Positions 8,202 to 36,341 of a stretch of 64,000 nt of DNA are shown here, one piece after another. Origin of the DNA: Tubulanus polymorphus. Lineage: Eukaryota; Nemertea; Palaeonemertea; Tubulaniformes; Tubulanidae. Where the stretch lies: positions 10,597,414 through 10,661,413 of the forward strand of contig NC_134034.1 of assembly GCF_964204645.1 (NCBI RefSeq), read 5' to 3'. The translations under genes were made by a program, and so were the position numbers. A model generated the notes under the pieces. The model was not told the origin of the DNA and did not search any database. It saw only the letters and a list, made by a program, of their open reading frames with translations. Position 1 is the first letter of the stretch. Every line of letters begins with the position of its first letter.

Positions 8202-11200
8202 ATGATGAAGTTTCTACCAGTGGTGTTTGTCGCCATAGCTCTGTTCAGAATCGGTCAGTATCACATTCGAACAATGCTACGCCATCGGACTTAAGACTTA
8301 AGATAGCAGGGCCCTGTTTTATAGACTGGCATCAATTCTAAGCCTCGGACTAATTCAATTCAATTTCCGGGTTCAGGTTGATACAAGTCTATAAAACCAA
8401 CCCCACGTCTACTGGGGCCAGTTACATAATCGTAGCTTTGACAGTAGTCTAAGACTAACTTAGTTCTATAGCTGATAAAACAACTTTAGACCAGTCCAAG
8501 ACCATCTTAGTTCTATAGCTACTCTAACAACTTTAGACTAGTCCAAGACCATCCAAGTTCCATAGTCAATGTTACAACTTAAGACCACTTCTGGGATTTA
8601 AGACCACTTTTGTACTTACGTCTCGACTACGGAACGGCCCCAGACTCGCTTCATTGCCTTTGAAAGGAGTCATAACGCAATAAATTAGTTGATATCCCCA
8701 GCAATGAATATTTTAAGATCTAAGTAACTAAAAGCATTTTTCTTCTTTTCAGGTTTAGTGACTGGTCAAACCGATAGTGGTACAGAAAGCTCAGGTGCTC
8801 TTTTAGATGCATCTGGAGGAGAAGACGGGTTTGATGGAACTGTAGGATCTGGAAATTTTGCATCTGGAGAAAAGTCTGAGACGGTTGCATCTGGAGGAGA
8901 AACTGAAACTGTTACATCTGGAGAAGAATCCGAGACAGCTGCATCTGGAGGAGAATCTGCGACTGTAGCATCTGGAGAAGAATCTGGAACGATTTCATCT
9001 GGAGAAGAATCCGAGACTGTTGCATCTGGAGAAGAATCCGAGACTGTGGCATCCGGAGAAGAATCTGGAACGATTTCATCTGGAGAAGAATCCGAGACTG
9101 TTGCATCTGGAGAAGAATCCGAGACTGTGGCATCTGGAGAAGAATCCGAGACTGTGGCATCTGGAGAAGAATCTGGAACGATTTCATCTGGAGAAGAATC
9201 CGAGACTGTTGCATCTGGAGAAGAATCCGAGACTGTGGCATCTGGAGGAGAATCTGCGACTGTTGCATCTGGAGAAGAATCTGGAACGATTTCATCTGGA
9301 GAAGAATCCGAGACTGTTGCATCTGGAGAAGAATCCGAGACTGTGGCATCTAGAGGAGAATCTGAGACTGTTGCATCTGGAGAAGAATCCGAGACTGTTG
9401 CATCTGGAGAAGAATCTGGAACGATTTCATCTGGAGAAGAATCTGAGACTGTTGCATCTGGAGAAGAATCTGAGACTGTTGCATCTGGAGAAGAATCTGA
9501 GACTGTTGCATCTGGAGAAGAATCTGGAACGATTTCATCTGGAGAAGAATCCGAGAATGTTGCATCTGGAGAAGAATCCGAGACTGTGGCATCTGGAGAA
9601 GAATCCGAGATCGTTGCATCTGGAGAAGAATCTGGAACGATTTCATCTGGAGAAGAATCTGAGACTGTTGCATATGGAGGAGAATCCGAGACTGTGGCAT
9701 CTGGAGAAGAATCTGAGACCGTTTCATCTGGAGAAGAATCTGAGACAGTTGCATCTGGAGAAGAATCCGAGACTGTGGCATCTGGAGGAGAATCTGAGAC
9801 TGTTGCATCTGGAGGAGAATCTGAGGCCGTTGCATCTGGAGGAGAATCCGAGACTGTGGCATCTGCAGAAGAATCCGAGACTGTGGCATCTGGAGAAGAA
9901 TCTGAGACCGTTGCATCTGGAGGAGAATCTGAGACCGCTGCATCTGGAGAAGAATCTGAGACTGTTGCATCTGGAGAAGAATCCGAGACTGTGGCATCTG
10001 GAGAAGAATCTGAGACCGTTGCATCTGGAGGAGAATCTGAAAGTGAAGAGGATGAATCTACCGAATCTGGATTACTGGACGGAACTGATGGTTCGGGTGA
10101 AATCGATGAAGATACAGTTGGATCGGGATTATTGGGTAAACTTGAAAAAGATCCAAATGGTATTGAATCTGGATCTGGAGAAGACAAAGTGTCTGAAACT
10201 GGAGAAGATGGCGATAATGTAGAAACTAATCGATCTGGAGAAGTTTCTGAATCTGAAGAAGATGATGAGAATGTAGAAACTGCTGGATCCGGAGAAGAGT
10301 CTGAGACTCCAGCATCTGAATCGCTGGATGAACAAGTGGGGAGCGGAGGAACCTATCTAACCGACAATGACGCAAACTCTGACTCGACGGGCGACGAACT
10401 GACGGAGGTTGAAATCGACGAGAACGGAAAAGGAATGTTGGAAGATCGAGAGGACAGCGACAACTCGGGTTTGCAACAAACAGTCGATACAAACGACCAC
10501 GACGGCGACGACTCGCAACAGGGTGAAAAAAACGCCGTTCAAAATTCGACTGTCACTCCCAAACATCACATGACAGTGGATGGACAAGCTTGTATGTTCC
10601 CGTACACATTCGAGGGAGTCGAATACAACGAATGCATCGATTTCCACACTCCTAGTTTTCGCTGGTGCATGACCGACCACGCGCATAACTGGGGATTCTG
10701 CGGTATGTTACAATAGATAGAATTATTCATCGATATATATTCTTAACGGTTTACAGGTATATTGGTGAGATCAGCTTTGGCTTAAACCAAAGACAATACT
10801 GACTCAATTCAATGGGCCATTTTCAAAACAGTTTTGAAAAATGACCATACAATTTGAGTCGAAACGGCATATAGGATTTTAATGTTTTTAATGATGTTTT
10901 ATTGAGTTTTGCTTATACTAATAGGCCTTTATTACGTTTTATTGAAATTGTTTTATATACTGGATTTGGAGATATTCTTGTTGTTTGGTAACTGTTTTTT
11001 TTTTGTCGTTGTTCACAGATCCGGTCGGAGCGGCGAGAGAAACAGTCGACGGAGAGCAATGTCATTTTCCTTTCCTCTATCACGGCGTAATTCATACTGA
11101 CTGTACTACCGAGTTCGGCGAGAATGGCCGCGCCTGGTGTCAATACAAATCAAATAACGTCCCCGACAACTGGAAATATTGCAGTAAGAATGTTCGCCAG

Positions 11201-14200
11201 TTCATCTGGGTTAATATAATCCGAATACGGTTTAGACTGAACGTCGGAATACAAGGGAATACTGGCACCACCAGATGGCGCAACAACCGGAGCTTGGTTT
11301 TATAGACTATTATTAACTTAAACCTGGAGGCTAACTTGATTCATTTTCAATTGAGTTAACCTCTGGGTTAAAGGTAATACCAGTCTACAAAACCGGGCCT
11401 GGGTTATTCGAGGTGAAAACCAGTTCATTTTCAATGAAACTTAATTTTTTGGCTTCCAAATCCGAAAACTATCAAACGAGTTATCGGATAGATTTAAGAT
11501 ACCCTTTCTCATTCAGTTTGTTCATGGTAAGGATTTCACTGAAAATTGATTTCACTAATCAGAAAAGTTGACTCGAATTTAATTGAAATATAGAAGAAAT
11601 TGAACCCAGTACCACTAGCGATCCTGGCGGATTATCACCGAATCATCAGTGAGCATCCCTCAGTAGCCTTCCCATTATTCCATTAGTACATCAAACATGG
11701 GCCGTTTCGAACGGTATTTTTTGCTTAGGCTGGTCGTACCGTGGACGTATAAATCGATCTAGCTTATACGTTCATGGTTTGTATCCGTAGCACATTGTCC
11801 CAAACACTTTTCCCCATGTTTCGGACAGTGTTTGGGATGAGTACCGGTAGTGGGGTACACATTCACATATTGAGGGTATAATACTTTGTTATAAGGTTCA
11901 AAGAAGTTACGTTTGAATTCAGTTCCAAGGTGTGTGGATGAACTTGTTTTTAATTGATAAAAAAACATATACAATTTCAGAGGTAAATCTGTGCGGTGTT
12001 GTGGATTGCGGTCACGGAACCTGCGTCGAGGACCGCGCATCGATGACCCATTCTTGTGTTTGCGATGACGGTTGGCTCGGAGAAAGTTGCGATCAAAGTA
12101 AGTGTCGTGTTCCCAATGACCCCTGGCGCCATCTACTCCACCCGCCAATATGGCGTGCCTAAAACATTACAGGACATTAACTCGTCGTTATATAACACCA
12201 TCCTTCTCAATGTCACTGCTGCCTAAATGCCGCTATTTTTTTAGCAAATTTGCTCAATCCAAATTAAATTCAATGATAATACAAATTTTTACCATACAAC
12301 CAAATTCGTTATGATGCCACGTTTTTCATTGGTCCCAAATTGGACCTTTACTGCCGTAAATCCCAAGTGAACTGCGGCATGGTTGTACTATTGTACTCAT
12401 CCTCGCTTGCCAGGGGTCCGGTATCACTCCCGAACTCGCTTCCACCAGCCCCCTGGCCTCACGAAGCGTGATTTCATTACTGACGCTGTTGCGCATGACG
12501 TCATATATCGATTTGCGAAATACTTCCTTGTTCAGTAAAACGTTCGCTGATTGGTCCATTTAACGGGAAAACCAATAGAAGCCTAAAGTCGTTTGTTACA
12601 AGCGCTGTGATTGGTACGACCGGATTCTGGTCGGCTAGTAACGACTCCAACGACTCGTGAGGTCAAGGGGTTCGGCGAACAGCTTTAGCGTAGTGGTTTC
12701 GAATCCCTTGACGGGTGAAGATGTATTGTACTCTGTTGCTCCCTAGAGGATCCTCGCTTACCATCCTCGATTGCCACAGTCGCGCGCGGAGTCCTCATCT
12801 CTCAAAGGAGGTATCCCGCCTCCCTGTAAATTTATTCATAAGGCAAAGGTTAAAAACTAACGTATTCTATCGGTCAATGTTCACAAATTCTATTTCAGTC
12901 ACCTTGTACTGCCCGTCTGCTGACTGCGGAAACGGAACATGCGAGGAGAAATTCGAACGGAAAAGTCACTCGTGTATTTGTGATATCGGCTTCGAAGGGG
13001 AAAACTGCAAAACACGTACGTTATCTTATACTATTGTATTGTGTAAATCATCTGAAAATCTGAATCGTTTTTACTATATAGCCTAACGCATACGGCAATG
13101 AAAAACGTCTCTCCCTCGCAAAAACTTTTACTGAAATGGTTTTGTGAGAAACGTGTTATTTTCTGTTGTGATGAGCCAAACGTTTTGCCGTGTGTGCGTT
13201 TTACCGCGTGTGTGTTTTGCCGCGTGTGCGTTTTGCCGCGTGTTCGTTTTGCCGCGTGTACGTTTTTCAGTGTATGCGTTGGGCTAATGAGACATCGACG
13301 ACGTTTTGTACTACCGTACAGTCGAAGGTAATCACTCATCCGGTAACGGTTGGTCTCTTACGCGAGTCCGTGGGTTCAAAATTCAAATATCGACATTGAA
13401 TTGTCTTTGAAACTAAATCGGGTCTTCATTTCTTATAAAATCACGGTGTTTTTTCTACGGTTAGTGACTAAATACTGTTCCGGAGTTGTGTGTGGACACG
13501 GTAAATGTGTGGAAGATTGGGAGAACAGACGCCATCAGTGTTCATGTGAGGAGGGCTACAGAGGCCATAACTGTACAGAACGTAAGTCACCCTCACACCC
13601 AGCCCCCAACCCCCAAGTTTAAGCTTTTTCATTTGCGATATTTTCTTTAAAATCCCGCACCTTCAATTTTGCGATTTTCAACTTTCCAAAATTCAAATAT
13701 TGCCATCAACAGTGCTTGGGCATTGAAACGACTGTAAGGCAGTTCTAGAGCACGCTCGTGCAGTCTGAGCAATATGTGAAACCGAATGTCAGAAAGTCGG
13801 AACTGTAGTCCGAAAATAGTGAACCAGTGGATTGATCACGGTCGCTGTAGTCCGCGCTTAGTTCGAAGATGGCCACCAGTGTGAAGTGCGTAAGACAGAA
13901 CTATAGGGCGTGCGGTTATTATCTCCGGCCACTAGTCGAAACTAACTACGAAAACCGAAGTTTGTCCTGGCTGAATATGTTTTCATTGTTTTATTTTTTT
14001 TTCTTAATTTCAGAGACTTTGTATTGCGATACTGCTCATTGCGAACATGGCGTCTGCGTTGAAGACTGGCACCACCGCAAACATATCTGTAACTGTGACA
14101 ACGGTTACGACGGTGAAGATTGTTCCACCAGTACGTCTCAATTTTCCAAATCTCCTTATACAGGCTTTTCAATCTTCCCGGCCAGAGGTTAACAAAGTCC

Positions 14201-17200
14201 CAGATTGAATGGGCTTTTCCGAGCTATCAAAACCTTTAATGAATCTCAGCTTGACCCGCAGTGATGCTATATTGCGCAGTTCTATACAGATTCTCTACTT
14301 ACTGCGTTCGTTGTTTTTTTTTTCTTGCAGAACACCTTTACTGCAAGAATGCCACTTGCGTCCACGGAACTTGTGAAGAACATTGGGATCGATCTACTCA
14401 CGAATGTTTATGTGACGAGGGCTACACCGGAGACGAATGTGGATCTAGTAGGTTTCTTATCGAATATGAAAATACTCTCAAAAATGGCATCATCACTACC
14501 GAGTAACCCGATTCCAAACTCGGTATACCGAAAAGCTAATAAGTTGTAGTGAAGGTTGAACACGAATTTTAAAATGTCTAATTTCAGGAAGATTGTATTG
14601 TCAGGATAACGAATGCGGTGCTAATGGTGACTGCGTGGAAGCGTGGGAGAATAGAGGTTACAACTGCTCCTGTCACGATGGATATCACGGCGAACGTTGT
14701 ACTACAAGTAAGTGTTGGGGGGAGGTGAAGGAATGACAACCAGGCCCCAGTTTCCCATTGTCTGAATTATGATTGATCTCAATGAAATGAACTGATAACA
14801 AAACTCACAACTGCGGAACTCGATCCAGAGTTACGTACATCTCAGGCGAACACAATTTCTACGATTGCCGAGCCATGTATGCTTTTAAAAAGAATATTAC
14901 AGGACCGAGGGGTTTCACCGTCGGGTTTAGAGATTTTTGAAGAAATCCCAACTCAATTTCTGAGAGAATTAAATTCATCTGTTTCAACGATCTCTGTCTT
15001 TACAGAAAGTGCGACTTCGATTGGAAAGCAGGCCGGGGTTCGGGCCCCCAAACTACCCGGCCTAGATTTACCCCTGTATTTTACATTCGATGATAAAAAC
15101 GGTGTTTTTGTTTCTATTTCGTAGCCGTCGAGTTTTGCCACCAGGAGGGTGTTGACTGCGGACACGGTTATTGCGAAGAAGATTGGGATAATTTAGGTTT
15201 TAAATGCGTCTGTGACGAGGGCTATGACGGAGTTTACTGCGCAAAAAGTACGTGGTTTCCTACATTCACAGCCCGATCTGAACAAGCACCACTTGAAAAG
15301 TTTATGGACATGTTACATTGAATTTTCCAAACGCATATATATATATATATATAGTTTCGAGTTGGCATGTTACTTTTTATTTGACACCAGCTGCTCTGTA
15401 CTGTCCGAAGGCGAACTGTGGCAATGGAACCTGTCACGAAGACTGGGAAAACCGAGGACACACGTGCATCTGTACCGAAGGTTTCGAGGGACCGTCTTGT
15501 CACAATCGTAAGTTTTATTTCAGCCTACTGATCACTAGGGGTTTGGGGGGCTTGTTACGAATTCATTCTATGATCAAACTTACAAACACCATGGGTTACA
15601 TATTAAACCGTAAATTGACCAGTCGCCCTACTGAATCTGTTCTTCGATTTCCGATTTCAAAATCAAATCCTTTGTTTCGTTCGTGGGCTTTTATCCCATA
15701 TCATTCTCAAAATGATGGATAACAAATGTCGAGAGATAATATAAAATCCCATAACGATAATGAAAATGTTTCCTATATTCATTGATACAGATACGCGGTA
15801 TTGTAGAGATGCGGAGTGTAAGAACGGCTATTGCGAGGAAGACTGGGAGAACCGCGGATTCATTTGCGCTTGTTACGACGGCTATACCGGACAGGACTGC
15901 GAAAACCGTAATTACATACACACATATTCCATTTCTTGATATTTCCATATGTATACCGAACTACTTTGTCTGAATACCAGACGATGTACGGGTTCTCCGG
16001 TCTTGTTTGGGAAAAACGGCTAAGTACTAGACTAGCGAACTACGAGAACGCATTCTTTGCCGTGAAGAATATCCAACTGAATATTGTAGAAAATCTAAGC
16101 TACAAGCAGTTCTCACAAAATGTTAAGTTAAGATTTATTCTATGAAAATATATAACATGTATTCATTGTGAAAAATGAGCTACATTTCATCTTAGCGCAC
16201 GAGAAGTTCGATTCTCTTACTGGCAAAAATCTACTCGATAGAAATCAGTGTAAATGGTATAAGTAGATTTTTTAAATGATGTAAGTACATTGTATAGTAC
16301 ATTAGAATTGATAAATTTGGGAAATATTTCAAATCGATGTTCGATCTTTATGCATAACATTTTGAGATTATCCATGTATGCTGCTATGCCATTCGTACCT
16401 GTAAACATCTTACTTTTTATCATCCATGTATGCTATGCCATCTTACTACTTTTTGTCGCTTTGTACGTGTATATTGTTTGCTGCTGTTACTCTTTATTTC
16501 ATTGACATTCATGGCACCTTCGTAATGGCGAATGCACGTACAATATACATGTGATAGTAAGATATACAGTATACAGTGTACAGTAACTATTTTGACAGAG
16601 GTCAACTACTGTTCGGACGATGTATTCTGTGGTAATGGAGACTGTCAAGAAGATTGGGACAACAAAAGTTTTCAATGCGTTTGCGACAGCGGTTTCACCG
16701 GCGACAACTGCACCGAAAGTAAGTTCATCGCCTATTTTTTCTAAATTCAGTAATTTGCATATGCAAATCATTTACGAGCACGTGACCGCGATGCGCTTAT
16801 AGTAATGAAAACAATTTCATTATTATGCAACAGCTCTTTTCTGACCTTAAGATTTTCTCAAAGGTACAGGTTTAAGTTTAAAGCTGATAGACACTGAGTA
16901 AGGCGCTTATGTACGTATGCAAGGGTTCTCGCAGGTCGGGCAATGCCAGAAAAATTCCCTGCAAGAAAAATCATGAATTCCGACAACTTTCTTGAAAATC
17001 AGGGAATGTTATGTTTGGTCTCTTGTTTTTCTTGCTGGTGACGAGTGGCGCAAGGAACCTCTTGATAAGAAACAACCCCCACTGAGGATGTCTTATAATT
17101 TAATCGGGGAATTTCGGTCAAGGTTCGAGGAAAATCTCGGGGAATAACGGAAAAGTTTAGATTATCCGATCTCTAAAAGCTCTTGTCATGTCTTGAAAAT

Positions 17201-20200
17201 CAATGATGTCGCTTGTCTATCTTTATTCAGAGAGGAACTATTGCGAGAACGTTAACTGCGGTCACGGCAGGTGCGAGGACGACTGGCCTGGCAGACGACA
17301 CAAGTGCGTGTGTCAAGACGGTTACAACATCGCTGATAACTGCACCACCAGTAAGCTAGACTAATCCTTTACACTACTGGGCCCATTCTTAATCGCCCAA
17401 AAAGATGTTGGTCCAAATACATGCAGTAATGATATTAATATTCATCGATAAACCGCTCTCCACTCGCCTTGCAGTTGTTGGGTTATAACATTTACTGCCA
17501 TTTTGAATTATGATAATTGTTCAAAATCAATACAAATACAAAAATTCAAGATTGACAGACGTATGGAGAAACGTATAAAGGTTTAGAAAATGTTCATACG
17601 ACCCGTCCAATATCCAATCCTGAGTGACTAGTGTAGCTGAACCCAAGTGTCTCTTTCTAGAAATTATGTTTTGTAACGGTATCGACTGTGGTAACGGAAC
17701 CTGTATTGAGAACTGGGACAACAGGACTCATCACTGTCTGTGCAACGAAGGATACGAAGGCACTAATTGCAAAATGGGTAAGCATAAAGTCGGCTAGAAC
17801 ATTCTAGAAAAATGACAATGTTAAGGATAATTATGATAGTAATTGTAACGATAATAGTAATAATGATAGTGATCTATTTGCATAAATGGCGTAGAACTAT
17901 AATGATAATCTCCGCGCGTTTTACGTCACATGAGCAAAAAGACATTTTGAAACAAACCACACAATCAGCAAAAACTAGATCAGAAATAGTTTTACTGGCT
18001 GCAAGGCCATCTACACAAAATATCTCACAATGCGGAAAACAGTTTTTTAAATGATTCTCACTTTTTGAATGATATCTGCGTATGCCGTTAAAAAGTATAA
18101 GAGCAAGCCATGGTCCATCTTGCAAAATAACATACATTCTTTAAAACGTTATTGTTTTAGTATATTTGTGGATTTCTGTGAATTTATCTAAAGAATAGTT
18201 GAAGTTGGGATACGTAATTTCTTTCAAATCATTTATTTCCTTATTTTTTTCAGTGAAACGTTACTGTTCGGAAGCCGACTGCGGCAATGGAACGTGCGCG
18301 GAGGATTGGCACAATCGAAAGCATATTTGCACGTGCCCAGAGGCGATGGGAGGCTCCGACTGTAGAACAAGTGATTGTTATTATATGAATACATATGATT
18401 GATACGAAGATAGAATATTTTCGAATTTATTGGCACGATAAGACGCACGTTATCGCTCTCCCACACGCTGAGCAGGGTCCTATACACACACACACGTAGC
18501 ACTGCATACCTTTATTAATGGTAAATTCATCGAGAATCAGCATCGGGAAGTTTTCAAAGTTACAAAGTATTGTTATTGTTTAAGTGGGTAAAATGGTACA
18601 ACTGCAATGTGATTACGAAATCAACAGTATTTGTTCAATGTCGTTTATAGGAAGTAAATTCTGTCCCGGAATCGACTGTGGTAATGGTGTATGTAAAGAA
18701 GACTGGGAACATCGAAGTCACGTGTGCCAGTGTGAAGAGGGTTTCGACGGAATGGATTGTAAATCCAGTAAGTGACTAGAATAACCGCGAGTGGAGGGCT
18801 TCACCATCAAGAATTCATATCCAAGTGTCAATGTGTCTGTTCTACTCATTTTCCCACCTAGTGATGGACTAAGAGGGACTTGCAGAAGTCCATCATTTTG
18901 AATGCCCTTTATCATTCTTTCAACAAACAAAAAGTTGGGGTGGGAGTACTCTTGATTTGGCCTCAACGTCAAAGTGCTTTTTTGGGATGTGACCTGCCAC
19001 CACAGCTGTCTGTGGAGGTTGTTGACCAAAATTTCATCAAATTTAGTGTTCACTACGAATGTCTGGCCGTTCTACCCGCTGCCCTCCCACCTCAGAGCTG
19101 TGAGGAGAGGGGCTCTCTAAGAACCTATGGTTCAGTTCTATTCAATGTGTCTCTACCACAGTGTCCTGTGAGGGGTTCCTCAAATGATTGTTGCTTTCAT
19201 ACAGTTTAAAACATGGATTTTCTTTTTAATCTACATGTGTTCCTCTCTTTCTCTCTCTTTCCCTCTCGCTCTATTTAAGTCATGAAATACTGTACGAACG
19301 ACACCGACTGCGGATTCGGATTTTGCGAGGAGAATTGGGAAAAACGAGGACATATCTGTATCTGTAATCACGGTTACACCGGCACCAAATGCCTCCAAAG
19401 TAAGTAATAATAGTGAAGAATTCGTCTTTTTGGTGTAACAGAATTGTAGTAGATGAATTAATCAAAAGTATTATTTCTAGAGGGGCCTTTATCGAAAACC
19501 GACCACCCCCCCCCCCCCCCAAACCACCATAACTATGATGTGGTTTGCCTGGAACGCTACTACAAGAATTCGTATCTCCCCATCATGAGAGCCGATACCC
19601 CATATACAACCACCACAACTATGAGACTCTCCACCAAGAAACACACTCCGACAAAGCTTTTAAAGTGCCCGTCTTTCAATACAAAATTAATCAAAGGTAT
19701 TCATTATAGTTTCCTAAACATTATGTTCAGCTGAATAATTTGTCGGTGTTTTTGTCTCTGTAGCTATCGGCCACTGTTCAGAGGACACTTGTAAACACGG
19801 CAAATGTAACGCGGGAACTTGCGTCTGCGATCTCGGGTATGCCGGGAAAAGTTGTGACCTGCGTAAGTGATGTATATATATATCAGTGTGCGACAACACG
19901 AAAAAAATCTTCACATTTTACGAATGTTTTCAGTTTTGATCGCGTATTCTATCTGTAGTCGAAAGTCAAGCCGGTGCCTGCTCGGATGCTACTTGTCTGA
20001 ACGGTCACTGCGAGGAAGATCTGGAAAAAGACGGCCATAAGTGCGTGTGCGAAGATGGATACGAAGGCGATTATTGTCAATACAGTACGTTTTTATATAT
20101 GGATATCCTTAGCCTATACTGGACAGTTGTGTGGGTTTCATTTGATACTAAAATCAGTTCCACAGTTGTGTGGGTTTCCATTTGACACTGAACTCAGTTC

Positions 20201-23200
20201 CACAGTTGTGTGGGTTTCCATTTGACACTGAACACAGTTCCACGTGTGCGTTTGATTTGACTCTGAACCCAGTCCCACATTTTTGTGGGTTTGATTCGAC
20301 TCCAGTTTAATCGGAGGTTTAATTTGACTTTGGAGCCAGTTCCACAGTTGTACGGGTTCCATATGTCACTGAAGTTAGTTCCACCGTTGTAATGGATTTA
20401 GTTGACTCTGAAATCAGTTCCACGGTTGTGTTGGTTTAATTTGACTCTGAACCCAGTTTAACAGTTGACTGTATGGGTTTAATATGTCACTGAAATCAGT
20501 TCCACAGTTGTAATGGATTTATTTGACTCTGAACCCGGTTTCACAGAATTCTATTCATCATCTGAATGAATCATTGTAGAGACTCGATACTGCGTAGACG
20601 CCGACTGTGGTGACGGTATTTGTGAAGAAGATTGGGAGAACAGAGGACATAACTGTATATGCGAAGGCGGACTCGAGGGATGCGCGGCTAGTAAGTGCAA
20701 AATCACGATCATAACGTCGTTTTAATTCCGCCGAAACGAACGATAGTTCGAATTGTTTTTTCCGCAGATATTCACGAATACCTGGAGAATGAGAGGGAAA
20801 GATGTAACGTGGATAAATGCGGCCACGGACGCTGCATCGAGGATCCGGATCACAACCGTTATATCTGCGTCTGCAACGACGGCTATTCCGTCGCGTCTAA
20901 CTGCGAGGACAGTAAGTAATGACTAATAGAATTAACGATGATTTGAATATGCAAATTGGAATTAGATTATGCTAATGGTTTCTCCTTTCATTTACAAACA
21001 CTTTCTTTCAATAGTCAAAGAAGAAAATTTTCAGTAAAAGTATCCAGCCCTTTACTTTGGAATAACATCAGTGAAAATCTTAAAAAAACATGGAAAATTC
21101 TAAACTGTTCCTAAGAAATTATAGAAAGCAACTTTGTGCTTGATTTTATCATACAGTTATTCGAACTAAAATTATTGTTTTTGGAATATTACAGAAAATA
21201 ACTGGCTTATTAAATGATTATATCTTAATCAAGCTGTTATCATAGTTTACTTTGATTGCATTTTGTGTGTTAAGGGTTGACTGTGAGCATATTATTTTCT
21301 TTATTGCATTTCTCTTTTTTTCTTTTCTCTTTTGAGGGACCTGTTTTATAAAAACTATTCCTTAGTTTCTACAGACCCCCCCTCCAGGTCCAATTTACTG
21401 TATTTTGTATTATGCTTTGTACACTATGCTGTAAATTATATTTGAAAAATAAAGTGTTCAAATCAAATCAAATCAAATCATACCGATTATTTCAGGTAAT
21501 GCACATTCTACGGTCATGCAACTTAACTTACGTTGATGGAAATATGCAATTTGAATATGCAAATTAACTCTCGAGTTATGTATATATTTCAGAGATTGTT
21601 TACTGTAAGAATGACACTTACTGTGGTCACGGAACTTGTCAAGAGGACTGGGAACACTATCGCCATAGATGTAATTGTACGCGAGGATATGCTGGCGTTA
21701 ACTGCACCGGTAAAGATATACATGCTGGTTTGATTGATGTAGCTGCCTAGGTTCATCTTTGCGACAGCGCCGCTGGTCTTGGCTACCACGATCACCACCA
21801 CCACCACCACCACCACCACCACCACCACCACCACCACCACCACCACCACCACCACGATCACCACCACCATCACCACCACCACCACTAACATCAGAGCTCA
21901 GACCACTATTCCAAAATCTTCTATATCCTATAGTAAAAACAAGAAATTCGAGAGTTTAGTTCATATATAAGCGCGTAAATTCAGGGGAAATCCTGCTTAT
22001 GGCTCATAGGCCAGCATCTTAGCTACGCATGGAAGTGGTTTTCGACCCACATACCCAACCTAACTTTTGAAATAATCAAACCTTTACAAAGGAGGGGTAT
22101 CCCAGTACAGGTATGCCAGTACATCTGAGCCCAATATCTAAGGGAATCCCCCAACGTGTTTGGTACCCTTACTCCAAGCAAAAAAAGTCCAGGGAATCCC
22201 TTATTTCATCATCAATCATCTGTCTCTCAGAATCAATGGATTTCATACATTCGTTACCTATCCCATTTGCAGAAATTATGGCAACATTTATCGGGGACCT
22301 GTTCTTCACTCTAGGTACTATTTTTGGGGTCCGGCCCTACGCATCTTCGAGCTACTAACCTAATTGTGGTCTGATGCCATCACCACCACCACCATCACCA
22401 CCACCTGGCGGGTTAACTGACTGAAAAGGGAATCTATTGCTGAAACTACCATTCAGATCTGAAAATACCAGATTCTAGATCTTTATTTTGCAAAGCATTT
22501 AAAAACAAAAACGTAGAACTGTATATTTATATGAAACTTAACGTTGTATTTGAGAAAGTATTCGAAAGCAAATCGAAATCTGCAACGAAGGGAATTTCTT
22601 TCACTAGTTCTTATTGCAATGTTGTTTCGCAGATACGGACCACTGTTTGGACTACGATTGCGGTCACGGTCATTGCGTCTATCACAAACACGAAGAGACG
22701 AAAAATTGTAGCTGCTACCCGGGATACAAAGGAGAAAGATGCGGCGAAAGTGAGTACAATAACAGACATTTCATGTTAACGTCGAAATATCGTCAGGATT
22801 CAGGATGGCCGCTTTACCTGAAAATCAGGGAAAGTCGGAGAATTATTTTTTTTTCTTTAAAAAAGTGAAGGTATTTTATAAAGAAAAAGCTAAAAATCAG
22901 GGGAAATTCAGGGCATTTATTTCCCGTCAATGTCTTACGTATTTGACTGTGTTAATTGATTGCATTCTGAGCAGGTGACGAAAAAGCTAAAGAAAATAAC
23001 TTACATGCCAGGGAAGCAAGTCAAATAAAAACAGCCAAACCCTGACATTTTTCCGATTTTTCAATTTTTCCAGGAATCGACTATTGTAACGAACTGAGCG
23101 TCGAATGCGGTGACCACGGCACATGTCACGAATTCTGGAACGAGCAGACGGCTGGCTGTTTCTGCGAGACCAACTACTACGGTGACCATTGTCAATTCAG

Positions 23201-26200
23201 TAAGAACATAACAGCCGTTTGATGAGTTTAAAACCCATTATATACAAAGTCTTAAAGATTAAAAACGGATTTTCAAGGCTGTAGCAGTGGGGAAGGGCAC
23301 AATCGTATATTCTCTTTTTATGCATCTAATTACTAATTGATTGTTTGTGTCTGCGTACGTTTCATGACTCATTCACTCATTTAAGAAAAAATGACCGGCT
23401 GTCAGAATCTGAGGCATTTCAAGAACAAGACGCAAGACGGAGAGTATGAGATATTCTTCGGACCCCATAACAATTATAAAGCGTTGATCTACTGTAAACA
23501 CATGCACACAGACTGGCCGGAAGAGTTTCTTACGCTCGTCAACGTGCCCGGAAATTACGTCAAAAACGGAAGCGGAATTGTCTACTTCCACCGCATCCGA
23601 ATCGATATACACGTACGTATTTCTGTTGTATATACAAAGATGGCGACCTGCATCGAATCACCCAATGACATCAACGATGTATCTATTTGAGCCTCCTGTT
23701 AAACAAAGCTACATTCAATATGTGATTTAATAATCGTCTCATCGATGAACCGATCCTTAGACCCATCCCCGAAAAAATGGCTGCCTATATAAATCCCATA
23801 TGACGTCATCAAATTGCCTATTGAAATGATATACATCCGAAAAAATGGCTGCCTACATAAGTCCCCCTATGATGTCATCAAATTGCCTATTGAAATGATA
23901 TACATACTCACATCCAAAAAAAATGGTTGCCTACATAAATCCCCCCATGACGTCATCAAATTGCCTATTGAAATGATATACATACTCACATCCGAAAAAA
24001 TGGCTGCCTACATAAATCCCCCTATGACGTCATCAAATTGCCTATTGAAATGATATACATACTCACATCCGACAAAAAATGGCTGCCTACATAAATCCCC
24101 CATAAGTCCCCTCGTGAGATCATCGAAATAACTAATGATTAGTACATGAAAATAATGTCGGTTTTCTAGAATATGCGCTTGATCACAAATGTATTCTACT
24201 ACACAAGCGACTCAACTATGGCGACAGCGATGGCTCAGGTCGGTAAAACTAATATTCAATATTCGATAATTACTTACAAGCGTTCTTTATTGATAATTAA
24301 TTGGACGCACATTTCCTTTATCGTTAAAGAACGTGAACTATGGCGAAGTAGCGGAATGTGCCGGACCGTATATTACGAAGGGTGAATTCAGCATCGATCT
24401 AACCGGTACGCCATTCCACGTGAAAAAGGTAGGTACATACAGCCCCGAAGAATCGATGAAACCGCCGCCTGCTTTTTGTCACCATGTCATATTGGCGACC
24501 GAACGCCATTAGCGATTAACATGAAAAAAAATCCCGTTAGTTTCTAAATCACCTGCTAAACTGCGGTAATCGAGGATTCCATTCCTATGGCAGGCGAGGA
24601 TCCGCTAGGTTCTTTAGTAGTTATTCGGTCTTCAGGCCTCACTTTCCTTGCATTTCAGTCAAAATCGAATAAATCATTGATGACAACTATACTAATTACT
24701 GATTAGAAAATGAATTTAATGTGTATTAAGTGCGAGTCCTCAAATATGAAGTGTTGCCTAAGACGTTACAAGTTGGACATAATCTATCGATTGTTGGTGA
24801 ATGGAGATTTGACAATTTATTTACGACGTAACAATTACGATTACGATTACGATTACGATTTTATTCACACTCCAACCATTTCCATGGTATATGGAGGAAA
24901 ACTATTACGCAAGGCGAGTGATCATCACGCCATCTGGTGGGATAGCGGTGTTGCAGTTCCGCTATTAGTTTTAAAATCTAATGAAGTGTTGGATGAACTC
25001 TGAAAGTTCCAACCTTAAACCTCACCCAGTAGAAATAAATACATTCGGAAAATCTATTTTCTTTATTGAAGTAATTATAAAACATTTCATATTTCAGGTC
25101 GATTCGCTCGAAGATCGGGTTATTTGGAAGCTATTCGGTAACGAGTCGGCACAGCTGCTTAGTCCGTCCTATCCGCAAGGTCAAACCGTCAGCGGATTTT
25201 GCGGAGGCAATTGCGGCGGTTGCTGGCCGATGAACCATCAAATACCGCTCAGATACATGTGGGGCAACGCGATCAAGCATCTCGTACCGTCGCATCCACG
25301 CAGCTGCTCCGAGTTAAAGGACGACTCCGGTTTAATCGAAGACGGCACGTTCCAGTTGTATTTCGGCGACAAAATGCAGTATAACGCCACGTTCTATTGT
25401 AACAATATGAAGTACACGCCGGAGGAGTATTTGATTTTGTACAGTAGAAATAATTTCGCGCACGCCGACAGCACCGGCGTCGACGGTAAAGAGTTCACTT
25501 TCCACTACGCCGGTAACATCACGTACAATAAAGTGCGCGTCAATCTCGAGGTACGGCGCTCATTTGAGCATAGAAAAATTTACGTTCAGGGGCGCATTGG
25601 TTTGATACCTAAAGACGAAAAATTGCCCAGAATAGAACACACATTTTGTAGCCATATAATTTTTCGACTAGCCTCTCCATATTTGGGGTCGAATGCAATA
25701 ACAGACCCTCGAAGTTTGTCAACTCCCTAATAACCGTGGTTTGTGGTTACGTACAGTGGAACCTCGTTACAGCGAACTTCACGGCCCAGAAGTGATTTCG
25801 TTATAACCCGATAGTTCTTTATATCCAGAGTATGAAATTTACTAGGTTCTCCACGTTGGGACGAAATTCTATATTTGTTATACGCGGAATCGTTGTTTCC
25901 GAGCTTCCACTGTTTGGAGTAAAATCATTTGAATGAACTGATATCTTTAAGGCATAAGCTAGTACTGAACAGCACTGAAACGACGTCACTCGCAAGCCCG
26001 TTTTAACTTAATACCAGATCCAGTTCTGCTCCGGATCAGTTTCGTTCACCCATAGCCTTGTCTGATGTTACCACTTAGTATCCGGGACCTAGTTCCACAG
26101 TTGTGAGTTAAGATGTTACTCATCGAAAATTAACTGATTTCATTCACCTCAGGGTTAACTATACCTCACGAAACTGCGGAACTGGATCCGGGCGGGTGGC

Positions 26201-28149
26201 TACACTAGGATCGTAGAGCGACGGAGATCAATGTGGGAAAAGCCATTTCCAGGACCGATTGAACAGTTTAGCGACTTCGGGTTTCAGTTTGAACCCATTA
26301 CCACAGTTTTACTAAAACTTTATTTCTTTTTTCAATCGTCCCGGCCTCAGATACAATATTCGACATCAGGGGCCGGTTCCATAGTCATGGCTTAGACTTA
26401 AGCCCAGTCTAAGACCATGTTAGTTCTATAGCTAATCTAACAACTTAAGACCAGTCTAAAGACTTGAGCCCACTTTTGGACTTAAGTCTCGACTGTAGAA
26501 CTGGCCCCTGTTCATTACCAAAGATCTCCAGTGAAATTGACCTAGCCCCACAATCGTGACTGATTCTTGTATTGTAAATCTACTGGATCTTACAGGAGAT
26601 GTTTATAGATACTTACGACGGAACGTTCGCTGCTAAGGTCGGACCGAGACCGCCGTATATGGGTGTCGGCTACGGCTGTAGGAAGAACGGCACTTTCGCG
26701 GTGGATTTGAAGCATACCGTATTCCAAATCGACATGACGGTAAGAGAAAATTAATGATCAGATGAAATTGGGGGTTTTATTTGTGATGCCGTCGATATTT
26801 AGAGAATCAGGGAACTCGGTAGTGTTGAGACTGCTATAAATATTTTACTGAGTTCAGAATCAGGGAACTCGGTAGCGCGTTGAGACTGCTGTAAATATTT
26901 CACCGATTTGAGAATCAGGGAACTCGGTAGCGTGTTGAGACTGCTGTAAATATTTCACTGAGTTGAGAATCAGGGAACTCGGTAGCGCGTTGAGACTGCT
27001 GTAAATATTTCACCGAGTTGAGAATCAGGGAACTCGGTAGCGCGTTGAGACTGCTGTAAATATTTCACTGAGTTCAGAATCAGGGAACTCGGTAGCGTTG
27101 AGACTGCTGTAAATATTTCACCGATTTGAGAATCAGGGAACTAGGTAGCGCGTTGAGACTGCTGTAAATATTTCACTGAGTTGAGAATCAGGGAACTCGG
27201 TAGCGCGTTGAGACTGCTGTAAATATTTCACTGAGTTGAGAATCAGGGAACTCGGTAGCGTGTTGAGACTGCTGTAAATATTTCACCGAGTTGAGAATCA
27301 GGGAACTCGGTAGCGCGTTGAGACTGCTGTAAATATTTCACTGAGTTCAGAATCAGGGAACTCGGTAGCGTTGAGACTGCTGTAAATATTTCACCGATTT
27401 GAGAATCAGGGAACTAGGTAGCGCGTTGAGACTGCTGTAAATATTTCACCGAGTTGAGAATCAGGGAACTCGGTAGCGTTGAGACTGCTGTAAATATTTC
27501 AACGATTTGAGAATCAGGGAACTAGGTAGCGCGTTGAGACTGCTGTAAATATTTCACCGAGTTGAGAATCAGGGAACTCGGTAGCGTGTTGGGACTGCTG
27601 TAAATATTTCACCGAGTTGAGAATCAGGGAACTCGGTAGCGCGTTGAGACTGCTGTAAATATTTCACTGAGTTCAGAATCAGGGAACTCGGTAGCGTTGA
27701 GACTGCTGTAAATATTTCACCGATTTGAGAATCAGGGAACTAGGTAGCGCGTTGAGACTGCTGTAAATATTTCACCGAGTTGAGAATCAGGGAACTCGGT
27801 AGCGTTGAGACTGCTGTAAATATTTCAACGATTTGAGAATCAGGAAACTCGGTATTAAGGGGGTATTTTAATATTTGTGTAGTCTCTAATCTGGCGATTC
27901 GTTTCTACTCCACAGAGAACCGAATGGGAACCGTTCCAGATCGAGGACAGTGAACCGTATCGGAATATATTCTCACAAGAGAAACAAGACGTCACCGGTT
28001 TCTGCAGAAATATGGCTGGAAATGGAAAGTGTGGAGGATGTCGACCAAAAAACGGCCGCATCTATATCAAATGTGCGTATAAGGACTTCAGCGATGAAAA
28101 CTTTGGGTGGGACTGTGGCAAGCGAGGGTTCCGCGGCAATCCGCCATAA
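8202..28149 (+). CDS. Secreted acidic SG-repeat / FN2 / 22x EGF / 2x GON matrix protein
   Basis: Thirty-one exons join in one frame (6006 nt, 2001 aa). Signal-peptide exon 8202-8253; acidic repeat plus FN2-1, 8753-10702; FN2-2, 11019-11183; EGF exons starting 11981, 12899, 13465, 14014, 14331, 14588, 15125, 15391, 15791, 16599, 17231, 17661, 18254, 18651, 19280, 19764, 19959, 20580, 20768, 21593, 22633 and 23074; GON exons 23386-23612, 24170-24238, 24330-24428, 25098-25550, 26596-26739 and 27916-28149 (stop TAA). Every FN2 and EGF exon is phase 1-1; the GON introns are phase 0. The exon 1 start (ATGATG at 8202) gives a clean signal peptide ending near LVTG. GON domains are best known from ADAMTS9/20 and worm GON-1, but no protease, thrombospondin or disintegrin module is present here. 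Role inferred: extracellular matrix or cell-surface proteoglycan-like protein. The exact function is unknown. Confidence 0.8.
8300..8642. repeat. Two adjacent foldback elements in intron 1
   Basis: About 8300-8405 has inverted ends built on GTTTTATAGACT / AGTCTATAAAAC (a relative lies at 11283-11402). About 8416-8642 has ends GGGGCCAGTTACATAATCG and the near complement CGACTACGGAACGGCCCC, with internal copies of the TTAGTTCTATAGCT word. Confidence 0.5.
8753..10702 (+). CDS. Exon 2: acidic 9-residue Ser-Gly repeats and first FN2 domain
   Basis: One 1950-bp exon. From about 8862 to 10035 it has about 43 copies of a 27-bp unit coding A-S-G-E-E-S-E-T-V, with variants such as SGEESGTIS that recur every three to five units as a higher-order pattern. 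A further acidic Ser/Glu/Asp-rich region follows, with GSGE and ESGSGED motifs, then a complete FN2 domain (ACMFPYTFEG, NEC, RWC, GFC) at about 10561-10701. Each repeat offers an SG next to acid residues, as in glycosaminoglycan attachment sites, and S-x-E sites for Golgi Fam20-type kinases; both are inferences. Because the unit is a multiple of three without stops, other frames and the antisense strand also stay open, but only this frame has a signal peptide and a downstream domain. Confidence 0.85.
11019..11183 (+). CDS. Exon 3: second FN2 domain
   Basis: A 165-bp phase 1-1 exon between a GTTCACAG acceptor and a GTAAGA donor. It encodes a complete fibronectin type II module with the usual four cysteines (EQCHFPFLYHG, TDC, AWC, KYC). 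FN2 domains are known to bind gelatin/collagen or, in mannose receptors, sulphated ligands. Two in tandem next to an acidic repeat suggest a matrix-binding role, which is inference. Confidence 0.85.
11283..11402. repeat. Foldback element, TTGGTTTTATAGACT family
   Basis: Inverted ends GCTTGGTTTTATAGACT and AGTCTACAAAACCGGGCC, with an internal inverted AGTTAACC/GGTTAA core. It lies in the intron after FN2-2. Noncoding. Confidence 0.5.
11981..23199 (+). CDS. Array of 22 single-exon EGF-like modules with EDW signature
   Basis: Each module is one exon of 99-144 bp (twelve are exactly 117 bp) flanked by phase 1 introns, so modules can be duplicated or skipped without frame loss. The consensus is C-x4-C-G-x-G-x-C-x-E-D-W-x5-H-x-C-x-C-x2-G-Y-x-G-x2-C. 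The EDW then His in the C3-C4 loop is shared by most modules, which marks them as a lineage-specific expansion from one ancestor. Module 16 (19764-19862) is shortened in the C3-C4 loop, module 18 (20580-20690) is short near its end, and module 19 (20768-20911) has an N-terminal extension. The calcium-binding D/N-x-D/N-E signature before C1 is not evident. Introns carry minisatellites, a LINE tail and a (CAC)n tract. Confidence 0.85.
12399..12719 (-). mobile_element. Dispersed ~320-bp element (copy A), SINE/MITE-like
   Basis: This stretch is a near-complete reverse complement of 34067-34390. One end reads TCATCCTCGCTTGCCAGGGG; the other carries TTAGCGTAGTGGTTTCGAATCCC, which resembles adjacent tRNA A-box and B-box words. 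No reading frame. It sits in the intron before EGF module 2. A tRNA-derived SINE or a MITE are both possible. Confidence 0.6.
13180..13275. repeat. 18-bp minisatellite (GTGTGCGTTTTGCCGC)
   Basis: Five or six copies of an approximately 18-bp unit GCGTTTTGCCGCGTGT in the intron before EGF module 3. It leaves several frames open, which explains the spurious small open frames here. Confidence 0.75.
20100..20560. repeat. Minisatellite of CAGTTCCACAGTTGTGTGGG units
   Basis: About eight degenerate units of 45-65 bp, each with AGTTCCACAGTTGTGTGGGT then TTTGACTCTGAACCC. A second array of the same word lies at 54935-55205, in an intron of the mucin-like gene. Confidence 0.7.
20985..21482 (+). mobile_element. 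5'-truncated non-LTR retrotransposon (LINE) 3' end
   Basis: A degenerate reverse-transcriptase C-terminal stretch (SSPLLWNNISENLKKTWK, then a stop or frameshift) is followed by a 3' UTR with AATAAA near 21447 and a (CAAAT)n tail ending at about 21482. This layout is typical of a dead LINE copy inserted in an intron, here between EGF modules 19 and 20. Confidence 0.65.
21787..21888. repeat. (CAC)n microsatellite
   Basis: About 30 nearly perfect CAC/ACC trinucleotides interrupted by a few CGAT/CAT units; a short related tract lies at 22376-22404. It is in the intron after EGF module 20. Confidence 0.9.
23386..25225 (+). CDS. GON domain 1
   Basis: Encoded by exons 23386-23612, 24170-24238, 24330-24428 and the start of 25098-25550. 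GON signatures in order: GCQNLRHF, DGEYEIFF, ALIYCKHM, EEFLTL, IRIDI, then GEFSIDLTGTPF, and the closing GFCGGNCGGCWP (the C-G-x2-C-G-x-C motif seen in ADAMTS9-type GON domains). Internal junctions are phase 0. The central cysteine-rich hairpin of vertebrate GON domains appears reduced. Confidence 0.75.
23755..24115. repeat. Tandem repeat, ~77-bp units (ATGGCTGCCTACATAAATCC)
   Basis: Four to five copies containing AAAAATGGCTGCCTACATAA, CCCCCTATGACGTCATCAAA and TTGCCTATTGAAATGATATA, in the intron after the first GON exon. The reverse complement of the same core forms the 46-bp arrays at 54430-54615 and 57240-57545. Confidence 0.75.
25250..28149 (+). CDS. GON domain 2 and C-terminus
   Basis: Starts in exon 25098-25550 (RSCSELKDD, EDGTFQLYFG, ATFYCNNM, EEYLILY, VRVNLE), continues in exon 26596-26739 (GTFAVDLKHTVFQI) and ends in exon 27916-28149 with TGFCRNMAGNGKCGGCRP and a Cys-containing tail that ends GFRGNPP before TAA at 28147-28149. 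Two exons of GON 1 are represented by one exon here, so the duplicated domains differ in intron content. The last intron holds a 1-kb minisatellite. Confidence 0.75.
25754..25912. mobile_element. pogo-like MITE
   Basis: Left end CAGTGGAACCTCGTTAC is preceded by TA; the right end reads CTTCCACTG, an inverted match to the first bases. It lies in a GON intron and has no coding capacity. Same class as 6227-6363. Confidence 0.5.
26086..26195. repeat. Foldback element, CAGTTCCACAGTT family
   Basis: GGGACCTAGTTCCACAGTTGTGAG on the left and GAAACTGCGGAACTGGATCC on the right are inverted matches. Same family as 1783-1892. Confidence 0.5.
26369..26512. repeat. Foldback element, CCATAGTCATGGCTTAGAC family
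   Basis: GGGGCCGGTTCCATAGTC on the left pairs with GACTGTAGAACTGGCCCC on the right. The interior carries the TAAGACCAGTCTAA word of the 6890-7029 family. Confidence 0.55.
26795..27855. repeat. 55-bp minisatellite in last intron of the GON gene
   Basis: About 19 copies of a 53-55 bp unit with AATCAGGGAACTCGGTAGCG and TTGAGACTGCTGTAAATATT. Variants (GCG present or absent, CTCGG/CTAGG, ACCGA/ACTGA) recur in the same order in blocks, so the array grew by multi-unit duplication. No splice-site-like ends are seen in the unit. Confidence 0.9.
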
Positions 28150-29853: not shown

Positions 29854-30001
29854 GGTGCCCTGTTTAATCAATTTTGAACCAAGTCGAATCGATAAATTAT
29901 TAGCTTTATGGAAACTTTTCTGACTCGCGTATTCTTTCTCGTTTTAACAGTTTTATCAGTGAGGGTTGTTTCTATTTGATTGATTAGAGATTTTCTTCAG
30001 A

Positions 30002-31743
30002 ATGCCTCCTCATCGCTATCAGCAGTTGTTCGTCGCCTGTGCCTTTTTGGCGTTCGTTTATTACGTCATAGTCCACCGTGGATCTCCGGCGATGGTTTCC
30101 GATGATGCCCGAACACCGCCGAAGACGATATCGATGGTATTTACGGGTGACATCATGGCGCACCGGAACATAACGCGATCGGTGTTCGACGAGAAAACTC
30201 AAACTTACGATTACAACCCAATATTCAGGTAACTTTATTTCAATGTAACTGAATGTGAAGTGTGGACGATCGGTTTTTGAAAGTTTGCTAATAAAATGTA
30301 TAATTTCTGGTGTTTCTGGTTTCAATCAAAAATATCTCAGGTAAAGTTCGGAACACATGTGAAGTGTTGATGAACAGCTTTTGAAAGCACGCTGATAAAA
30401 TATCTAAAGTCTAGCGTTTTTAGTTCATTTTCAATCAAAAATATCTCAGGTAAAGTTCGGAACACATTTGAAGTATGGGCGATCAGTTTTTGAAAGTGAG
30501 CTGATAAAATGTCTATTGTCTGATGTGTGTAGTTAATTTTCAATAAACAATGTCTCAGGTGAAGTACTGAACACATGACCCCGAGTGTGGTCTATCAAAA
30601 ATTGACAGACACAAGTACCAAAAGCCCGAGAGGGAGCGGGTCCATTCTACTTCATTTCAATAAATCAATCTTTATTCTCCGTTTAGGTTTGTTAAGCCAA
30701 AATTAGCAGAAACTGATTTTGCGATCGGCAATCTTGAATGTGCAGTCGGTTCTTCTCCGGATGCGGACTTGGCGAACGGCCATTTTACGATAGTCGTACC
30801 GCCGTCGTTCGTCGAAGCTTTACGTAACGCCGGATTTGACGTTCTGGTTACGGCAAACAATCACGCAAACGATGGAGGAAAAGCGGGTGTCGTCAAAACG
30901 AGCGAAACTCTGGACGAATTCGGCATCAGGCACACGGGAGCGTTCGTCGACGGTGACGCGCGTCGGAGACTCTCACCGTTATTACTCGAGAAGGACGGGT
31001 TCCGTATCGCGCTGCTGGCGTTCACCAGACACACGCCGTCAGAACTCGATATGGAACCGCCGACCGAAATGAACTATCTCGAAGAAACGACTATTCGTCG
31101 CGAGGTGGAACGCGCTAAAAACATGAACGTCGACCAGATCATCGCCTTCGTGCACTGGGGTCTAGAATACCAGGAACACCCCGATTACTACTTCCAGAAA
31201 TTGTGGTTTAAATTCTTCAAAGAACTCGGCGTGAATATAGTGATCGGGGCTCATTCTCACGTGCTACAACCGATGGTTTGGGATAAAAAGGACGACTCCT
31301 TGGTCGTGTATTCGTTGGGTAATTTCCTAGCCGATATGACCTATAAACTTCCATCGCTGAAAGGAGCGGCCATTTTTCGCCTGGTTTTGGAAAAGCGCGC
31401 AGACGGCAAAGTATCGATTAAAACAGCCGACTACGAGTTGACCTACATTCAAAATCGCGCAGCTGGGAATATGAGCCAATCGTCGTTCGCCATTCTACCG
31501 GTGAAAGAGTTCGAAAATAATGCTAGGTATTTCGACGATTTGGAATTCAAGGATGAAGCCATGCGAGTTTCGGCGACGGATATGAGACGGTTGATGGCCG
31601 TCGAAACAGTCGGTATACGCGAGCGCCACGCTGAGAATTTCGATCAGCAAAGCCTAGAGTTCCAGTCGAAATTCCTGCGCATGAAATCGAATACCCCTCC
31701 ATTTAGAATATGCCCGTCTTTGGAATCGATGGAGAGAAACTAG
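30002..31743 (+). CDS. CapA / PGA_cap family protein, membrane-anchored, two exons
   Basis: Exons 30002-30228 and 30687-31743 join in phase 2 to give 427 aa, with TAG at 31741. An N-terminal hydrophobic segment (residues ~9-25, LFVACAFLAFVYYVIV) makes it a probable type II membrane protein. The remainder shows the PGA_cap metallophosphoesterase-like signatures in order: FTGDIMAHRN, GNLECAVG, VTANNHANDGG, FVHWGLEYQEHP, IGAHSHVLQP, VYSLGNF. In bacteria CapA/PgsA belongs to the poly-gamma-glutamate synthesis complex. A pgsAA-type gene was reported in cnidarians and linked to nematocyst poly-gamma-glutamate and horizontal transfer. Here the spliceosomal intron and flanking animal genes show it is resident, not contamination. 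Substrate and role in this animal are unknown. A polyadenylation signal AATAAA lies at 31929-31934. Confidence 0.85.
30240..30590. repeat. Minisatellite, ~110-bp units (copy B), in the CapA-like intron
   Basis: Three copies with GTGAAGTGTGGACGATC, TTTTTGAAAGT and AATATCTCAGGTAAAGTTCG. Homologous to 3530-3890. Confidence 0.7.
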
Positions 31744-34734: not shown

Positions 34735-36341
34735 ATGTTCCGCGGCGGAATTTGTTTAGGAGGATTTCAACACTTATTGTGGATAACGGTCGTTATGACG
34801 TCATTAACAGGTAGTATACACGGACCAGTTGCAAAAAACGGCCGTCTTAGCTATATTGTTTCATGCAGCAGTGTTTGAGCTACGTGAAAGAGGTGAAACC
34901 CAGAATTGTGGTCGTGGCACCTCTCTAGTTGTGTGGTTATCATTGTATGTGACCACAGTCTGTGAGATCGAGTTCAGCTCGAGACGGCAAACAGACCTTC
35001 CACAGACCGCTCATGCGCAATCTATAGATTGACCAAATAGGTCGGATTTCGATTGTTCTGGTACAAACCAGTTTGTGGCGTGTACGACAAAAGGTCTCCG
35101 CGTTATTGTGTCGACGGCTCTGTGGCCTCAGCTCTCTACACGAGAACTTCACAATGAAACGGCGGCAAGAATAAATTGTTCTTGTTGAGCTGGACTCATA
35201 TAGGTGCAACTGGGCCCAATGAAAAAAAGAGTGGTTAATGTTAACACAACATGTGGCAAATCCACCCGAAGATTCTAGGATTCTACTTTTGGTATGTGGA
35301 TCCACCAGGTGCACCAGTAGTAATTCCGTTTCCCATACTTAAATTTCTGTTAGCTTTCAATGGGGACCGGCCAATGTTACTTCGGCAAGCGAGTATTCAC
35401 TAGGTGCACGAGTAGTTTAGTCGGCATTCGGGATTTTGACTTCTTCAATATTTCAATCGATGAAAAATCGAATCGACTTTTTTTAAAATTTCAGCTAATG
35501 TTTTGAAGCTGTCGGGTAGGTACGGTAGAAAAGACGGCGATTGTTATCATCATGATATAAGTCTGGTGAACGCCGATGATTTATCGAAGTGCGAAGACTC
35601 GTGTGACGCCTCGTCTAGGTGCCGCGGTTTTGTGGCGCTTAAAGGTAGTCCGCCGTACCGATGTTGGTTGAAAGATTACAAATGTACGAATTTGACGAAG
35701 AAATCGGTGGCAAATTTCTACGAGAAACTCGATAGTAATGACGGTGAGTCACGTGATAGGAGAAGGGGGGTTAGCAGCCGAGACATGCAAAGATTCTGTG
35801 AGAGGAATTTTAACAATTGCAGCGAAATCCAAATAGGATTTGAAAAGGGAAAGTTTATTGAGACCATACCGTTTCGTCATCAGCTGCTGGAATATAACTT
35901 TTTCATCTTTTTCAGCACTAAAATCTTGTTTTTTAATTTTGGTTTTATTTGACTAATATTTAACGTTTGACTTGTCGCATATCGGTGTATTTTGAGGCCG
36001 TCGGGGTTTACCTGACCCGATATACGCCTTCTTTCTGTAGATTTCATCGTTAAAAACTATCATATTTTTTTCTTTTCGTAGACGCGGGTAGAATCTTCAA
36101 ATATGGCGTGAACGCGGCGATGCCGGGGGTTATTTCACAGCCGCTGAAACCCGGAGTGACGTACACGCGTTTTAACGACGCTGTCAGTTGTTTATTGAGT
36201 TGCAGTCACGATTCGAATTGTTACTCGTCGAATTATCGATCGACAACGAAAGAATGTTACACGTACAGTTTGCAACATTTCTACGACGTGCGCCCGATAA
36301 CAGCGACCGGTTGGACTTTATACTACGTGTACTTGTGGTAG
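34735..36341 (+). CDS. Secreted PAN/apple-like protein, paralogue 2
   Basis: Exons 34735-34810, 35495-35743 and 36082-36341, with the same phases as paralogue 1, give 194 aa. The signal peptide (GGFQHLLWITVVMTSLT) and the exon 3 product are almost the same as in the other copies; exon 3 differs from paralogue 1 by about one base in 260. Exon 2 has diverged strongly (SGRYGRKDGDCYHHDI, KCEDSCDASSRCRGFVALK, RCWLKDYKC) while keeping all cysteines. A candidate polyadenylation signal AATAAA is at 36855-36860, after a 3' region homologous to the arms of the 42-50 kb array. Confidence 0.75.

Follow-up and report, generated by a model that had tools for sequence, protein, structure and literature searches.

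The GON domain (PF08685) is known from the C-terminal ends of ADAMTS9, ADAMTS20 and C. elegans GON-1, which are proteases that also have TSP1 repeats. In C. elegans gon-1 mutants, secretion defects are rescued by a signal peptide and the GON domain alone, according to the available text of PMC4517882, so GON can act without the protease. PF08685 also appears in a domain table in the accessible part of PMC4224354. The accessible portions of the open-licence literature, including PMC4224354, PMC4517882, PMC4349717 and PMC549037, contained no description of GON without ADAMTS. Another system that is close to the one described here is the tenascins, which have a leader, an N-terminal coiled-coil assembly domain, an EGF array with the spacing xC[x]3C[x]5C[x]4-6CxC[x]5G[x]2C (as given in the available part of PMC11401434), FN3 domains and a C-terminal globe, the fibrinogen-related domain (FReD).

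We examined a predicted gene of Tubulanus polymorphus that joins GON to neither a protease nor TSP1 repeats. The window is the whole stretch of 64,000 nucleotides that we analysed (C10:10597414-10661413, in an assembly of 267.8 Mb and 77 contigs). The gene lies at window 8202-28149 on the forward strand and has 31 exons with 6006 coding bases, enough for 2001 amino acids (Table 1). It has a leader-like start, a single stop codon at the last codon, and GT-AG borders at 30 out of 30 introns, in agreement with the first-pass annotation, which had claimed 31 exons in frame from a signal peptide to a stop. Exons 2-26 begin in phase 1 and exons 27-31 begin in phase 0. Each of the 22 EGF exons has a length that is a multiple of three bases and has phase-1 ends, which is the usual form of shuffled or duplicated modules. 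We picked the exon ends by hand to keep the frame open, so the open frame alone is no independent proof of the model. Intron 30 carries a minisatellite with a 55-base unit and 19.4 copies (window 26802-27854).

Table 1. Exons of the predicted gene (window coordinates) and exons found ahead of GON elsewhere in the T. polymorphus genome (contig and Mb).
Feature	Position	Strand	Basis
Exon 1: start codon and signal-peptide-like leader MMKFLPVVFVAIALFRIG	8202..8253	+	leader judged by eye
Exon 2: acidic region rich in Ser and Gly, 43 units of nine residues (8860-10020), first FN2	8753..10702	+	fn2 31.6 bits, TRF
Exon 3: second FN2 domain	11019..11183	+	fn2 42.2 bits
Exons 4-25: 22 EGF exons, phase-1 start and end, six cysteines each	11981..23199	+	
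Exon 26: GON domain 1, first part	23386..23612	+	35.5 bits alone
Exon 27: GON domain 1, middle	24170..24238	+	
Exon 28: GON domain 1, middle	24330..24428	+	
Exon 29: GON domain 1 end and GON domain 2 first part	25098..25550	+	
Exon 30: GON domain 2, middle	26596..26739	+	
Exon 31: GON domain 2 end and stop codon	27916..28149	+	
PAN-GON loci	C4:26.69, C7:16.20, C3:22.23, C3:4.20, C6:12.39 Mb	same as GON	PAN_1 over cut-off
Kringle ahead of GON	C12:8.65 Mb	same as GON	73.8 bits
Kringle ahead of GON	C12:8.52 Mb	same as GON	by eye
Trypsin exon ahead of GON	C7:19.52 Mb	same as GON	28.3 bits
Further trypsin-like exon ahead of GON	C7:19.54 Mb	same as GON	by eye
Bare leader ahead of GON	C6:10.77 Mb	same as GON	by reading

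Pfam called GON twice, at 91.8 and 62.9 bits. Both are above the PF08685 cut-off of 22.6; a score below threshold would have counted against the reading of the first-pass annotation. The two FN2 domains were above the fn2 cut-off of 22.2 and EGF-type families were above theirs. The FN2 calls depended on the size of the piece, as fn2 was unlisted when both domains sat inside a 970-residue EGF-rich piece. Because long pieces can hide domains in this way, we rescanned the EGF block as six short pieces. An EGF-type family was above its cut-off in all six, and PF00008 was in five. For the whole block, the top EGF model was Teneurin EGF (PF25024) with 167.6 bits, and PF00008 scored 123.6 bits over 19 stretches. 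By reading, every one of the 22 EGF exons has exactly six cysteines. The six short pieces listed no protease, TSP1, FN3 or calcium-binding EGF (PF07645) at E up to 10. Pieces spanning the whole protein listed no FN3 at E up to 10, and neither a reprolysin-type metalloprotease nor TSP1 repeats were called in Pfam scans that together covered the protein from end to end. The mosaic that had been claimed for this locus, of acidic repeats, two FN2, 22 EGF and two GON domains with no protease or thrombospondin repeats, is borne out, with 43 acidic units, and we consider the observation of an acidic-FN2-EGF-GON gene model confirmed.

The 22 EGF units have a mean pairwise identity of 41%. When we searched the genome with four of them, 18 of the 34 matches were within the gene and the 16 elsewhere had 29-42% identity, which suggests that the array expanded inside the gene at 8202-28149.

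GON is also found elsewhere in the genome. The PF08685 profile had 32 exon matches in the 268 Mb, which by our visual grouping make up 24 places, spread over 7 contigs. Searches for reprolysin (PF01421) and TSP1_ADAMTS (PF19030) listed 6 and 46 matches. The nearest of these 52 listed matches to any GON place is a TSP1_ADAMTS match 324,320 bases from the GON exons of the window gene, and the nearest listed reprolysin match on the window's contig is about 1.3 Mb from the gene. These genome profile searches score the best candidates only (for PF19030, the best 150 of 229) and could have overlooked a GON tail that has diverged or a protease exon with a weak match. From the other direction, we searched 8-9.5 kb on the 3' side of each of five TSP1 arrays and found no GON first exon at E up to 0.1, although an intron may span more than that. 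A pattern scan for TSP1 and protease motifs in part of the loci found none, with patterns that lacked a positive control. An EGF pattern that did have such a control gave 21 matches in the window gene and missed at least one EGF-like exon that we saw by eye in L015.

Of the 23 other GON places, we read the surroundings of 13 and assigned an upstream context for 10 of them (Table 1). In five of the 13, GON is preceded on its own strand by a leader-like start and PAN_1 above its cut-off. The PAN, kringle and trypsin exons are tied to GON by position and strand, and a common transcript is putative. The family of PAN-GON and kringle-GON loci is spread over C1, C3, C4, C6, C7 and C12. On C7, the GON loci at 19.52 and 19.54 Mb are near-identical tandem copies, and C3 has a cluster of seven GON places at 22.23-22.45 Mb.

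The first part of GON is regular in these copies. We took 15 first-part pieces from 12 places, two of the pieces being from the window. PF08685 matches every one of them at E up to 1, and all 15 have a phase-0 GT donor within three codons of one common point after the first GON exon. A phase-1 entry into GON could be read at four other places (L021, L023, L029, L030), as in exon 26. The combination with FN2 appears particular to the window gene: the genome has 65 FN2 matches, and when we compared the lists by eye, FN2 and GON occurred together only at this locus. The first-pass annotation had proposed GON as an independent matrix module. The first half of this is supported by the genome sequence, with 24 GON places and none less than 324 kb from a listed protease or TSP1_ADAMTS match; the role in the matrix is something that we infer.

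We also looked for relatives of GON among solved structures. A 15-sequence profile of the first GON exon matched 19 sequences in the PDB at E up to 10, and 11 of these are FReDs (four from tenascin, four from angiopoietin-1, two from tenascin-R and one from techylectin-5A). The four best matches are the tenascin FReDs, with E of 0.0016-0.002 and a best-domain E of about 0.02. The other eight, at E of at least 0.25, are peroxygenases, a small archaeal-virus-type protein and fimbrial adhesins, going by their names or our reading of them. A single-sequence PDB search with GON1 gave nothing at E up to 1, and the PDB searches found no solved structure related to GON by sequence beyond the distant FReDs. 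Using hhalign, we compared GON with an alignment of eight of the 15 FReD matches in the T. polymorphus genome. The score was 29.7 (P 1.5e-4, 61 columns). None of 100 column shuffles scored above 17.9, and the reversed alignment and an EGF alignment reached 9.8 and 10.0. In the reverse search with an FReD profile no single GON was significant, and a shuffled sequence (E 0.038) outranked the best one (E 0.15), although 11 of the 15 GON sequences were among the top 20 of 337 test sequences. Fibrinogen_C was not called by Pfam on either window GON, and the fold prediction for two window GON pieces had a pLDDT of 43, too low to be informative.

Taken at the level of sequence profiles, GON and FReD are likely to be kin, but only over roughly the first 60 residues of GON. 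For the rest of the domain we found no relative. If GON is a relative of FReD, it gains a structural and ligand-binding framework. A broader idea, which we hold tentatively and at somewhat less than even odds, is that GON represents an old, diverged offshoot of the FReD superfamily and lives as a free module in this lineage. Here it would cap an EGF rod, giving a bridging protein that came to resemble a tenascin by its own evolutionary route, and the version in ADAMTS9 and GON-1 would be only one of its uses.

Our main reading, to which we assign a probability of roughly 0.6, is that the window holds a single gene for a non-enzymatic, modular protein that is secreted and works outside the cell, where it would bridge a matrix polymer to a partner. 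The predicted transcript would run through all 31 exons. The N-terminal acidic arm would be extended and highly negative and could bind calcium and basic partners, and its Ser-Gly sites possibly carry phosphate or glycosaminoglycan. The two FN2 domains may bind a matrix polymer such as collagen, as FN2 domains do in other proteins. The 22 EGF domains would then form a long rod, and the two GON domains, with their putatively FReD-related first parts, would be binding globes at the C-terminal end. Such a protein could hold the polymer at one end and the partner at the other, in the manner of a tenascin.

The acidic arm leaves the most room for other readings of what the protein does. It covers residues 23-624 and has 173 D/E, 13 K/R/H and zero cysteines; its content includes 144 Glu, 121 Ser and 91 Gly, and its pI is about 4.05. 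TRF reported a 27-base period with 43.8 copies at 8858-10040. In the 43 in-register units there are 101 differences from the consensus, with 20, 24 and 57 at codon positions 1, 2 and 3, and 57 of the differences are silent while 44 are not. This excess of silent, third-position changes points to selection on the codon register of the repeat. One antisense frame in register yields identical counts, so the codon-position test cannot pick the strand.

It is possible, if rather unlikely, that the arm makes the protein a proteoglycan core of the chondroitin or heparan type, with carrying sugar chains as its main job. The arm has 61 SG pairs in its 602 residues, where 1000 shuffles gave a mean of 18.3 and a maximum of 30, and 50 of the 61 have an acid at -1 to -4, as SG sites of chondroitin proteoglycans do; the tandem repeat inflates this. 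However, the stringent C. elegans chondroitin motif [E/D][G/A]SG, as taken from the accessible part of PMC8418075, is present at just 2 of the 61 sites. SGxG also occurs only once, which is below the shuffle mean of 2.7. We think it improbable that the arm is instead a phosphorylated segment that binds calcium or mineral, in a protein of a mineral or adhesive matrix. S-x-E is the motif of the secretory kinase FAM20C, and the 41 S-x-E sites and the low pI fit such a segment, but shuffles average 29.0 such sites and reach 43, which makes the excess a modest one. As additions to a bridging protein, sugar chains or phosphate on the arm are possible. A motif scan for RGD, LDV and KGD found none.

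The locus might also be split between adjacent genes, with exon 25 as the last exon of an FN2-EGF gene and the two GON domains in another gene. We drew the join between exons 25 and 26 from the DNA alone, the open frame runs into a stop no more than about nine codons past exon 25, and the upstream neighbour gene terminates after its EGFs and has no GON. Still, we consider two genes quite improbable. Exons 25 and 26 are only 186 bases apart, exon 25 has the donor GTAAGA, and the phase-1 entry of exon 26 agrees with the EGF exons and with the four other GON places where it could be read. In addition, a stop codon immediately before exon 26 shuts the GON frame (ORF 23385-23690), so a GON gene starting there would be leaderless, and a separate gene would have to draw its leader from an exon that we have not seen. 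Although the 31-exon model was made by hand from sequence, an artefact or a decaying gene is very hard to square with 6006 coding bases without an internal stop, repeat changes that are more often silent than not, and cysteines that are kept in all of the EGFs.

The upstream neighbour runs from L009 7182-10000 to window 261 on the forward strand and has a leader-like start, two FN2 and four EGF domains, with the last EGF exon closing at a stop at window 259-261. One of its FN2 domains was above the cut-off, at 29.4 bits, in the genome profile search, and neither was listed in a later domain scan. It shares the FN2-FN2-EGF order and the strand with the window gene and is about 8 kb away, but its EGFs are of another subtype and we saw no acidic arm or GON. 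The window FN2 pair had 41 matches in the genome at E up to 1, and the neighbour's FN2s were not among them; the best match outside the gene is on C5, with 43% identity. Downstream in the window, a gene at 29984-31743 (+) resembles bacterial PGA_cap (CapA), with its first exon alone scoring 14.4 bits, below the cut-off of 27. By eye, there are two alike PAN/apple-like cysteine patterns in separate ORFs at 35464-35952 and 41299-41700 (+), and a single seven-helix-receptor-like ORF at 37473-38480 (-).

Also close, within the same genome, are the PAN-GON genes, which share a leader-like start and the matching end of the first GON exon with the window gene. They have PAN in place of FN2 and EGF and are apparently short, going by partial gene models.

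With the tenascins, the window protein has in common a leader, an EGF array and a C-terminal globe, and the first part of GON is distantly like the tenascin FReD. In contrast to them it has FN2 and the acidic arm, no called FN3, and GON in place of a true FReD, as Pfam calls only GON at the C-terminal end. The first gap in its EGFs, read by eye, is at least 4 residues in 22 of 22, against three in the spacing given in the available part of PMC11401434, and the Tenascin EGF model (PF18720) scored 16.2 bits on the EGF block against a cut-off of 25. The protein may thus be organised like a tenascin, but as it lacks FN3, the EGF spacing of tenascins and an FReD that Pfam would call, it is not a tenascin by membership.

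ADAMTS9, ADAMTS20 and GON-1 share the C-terminal GON with the window protein. Where they have a metalloprotease and TSP1 repeats, it has FN2, EGF and two GONs, and because no protease or TSP1 was called, it is not an ADAMTS by membership. GON apart from ADAMTS is supported within the T. polymorphus genome by the 24 places. In the available text of PMC4517882, protease-free action of GON was shown with a made construct; the T. polymorphus genome appears to hold many protease-free GON genes, which could open GON's own function to direct study.
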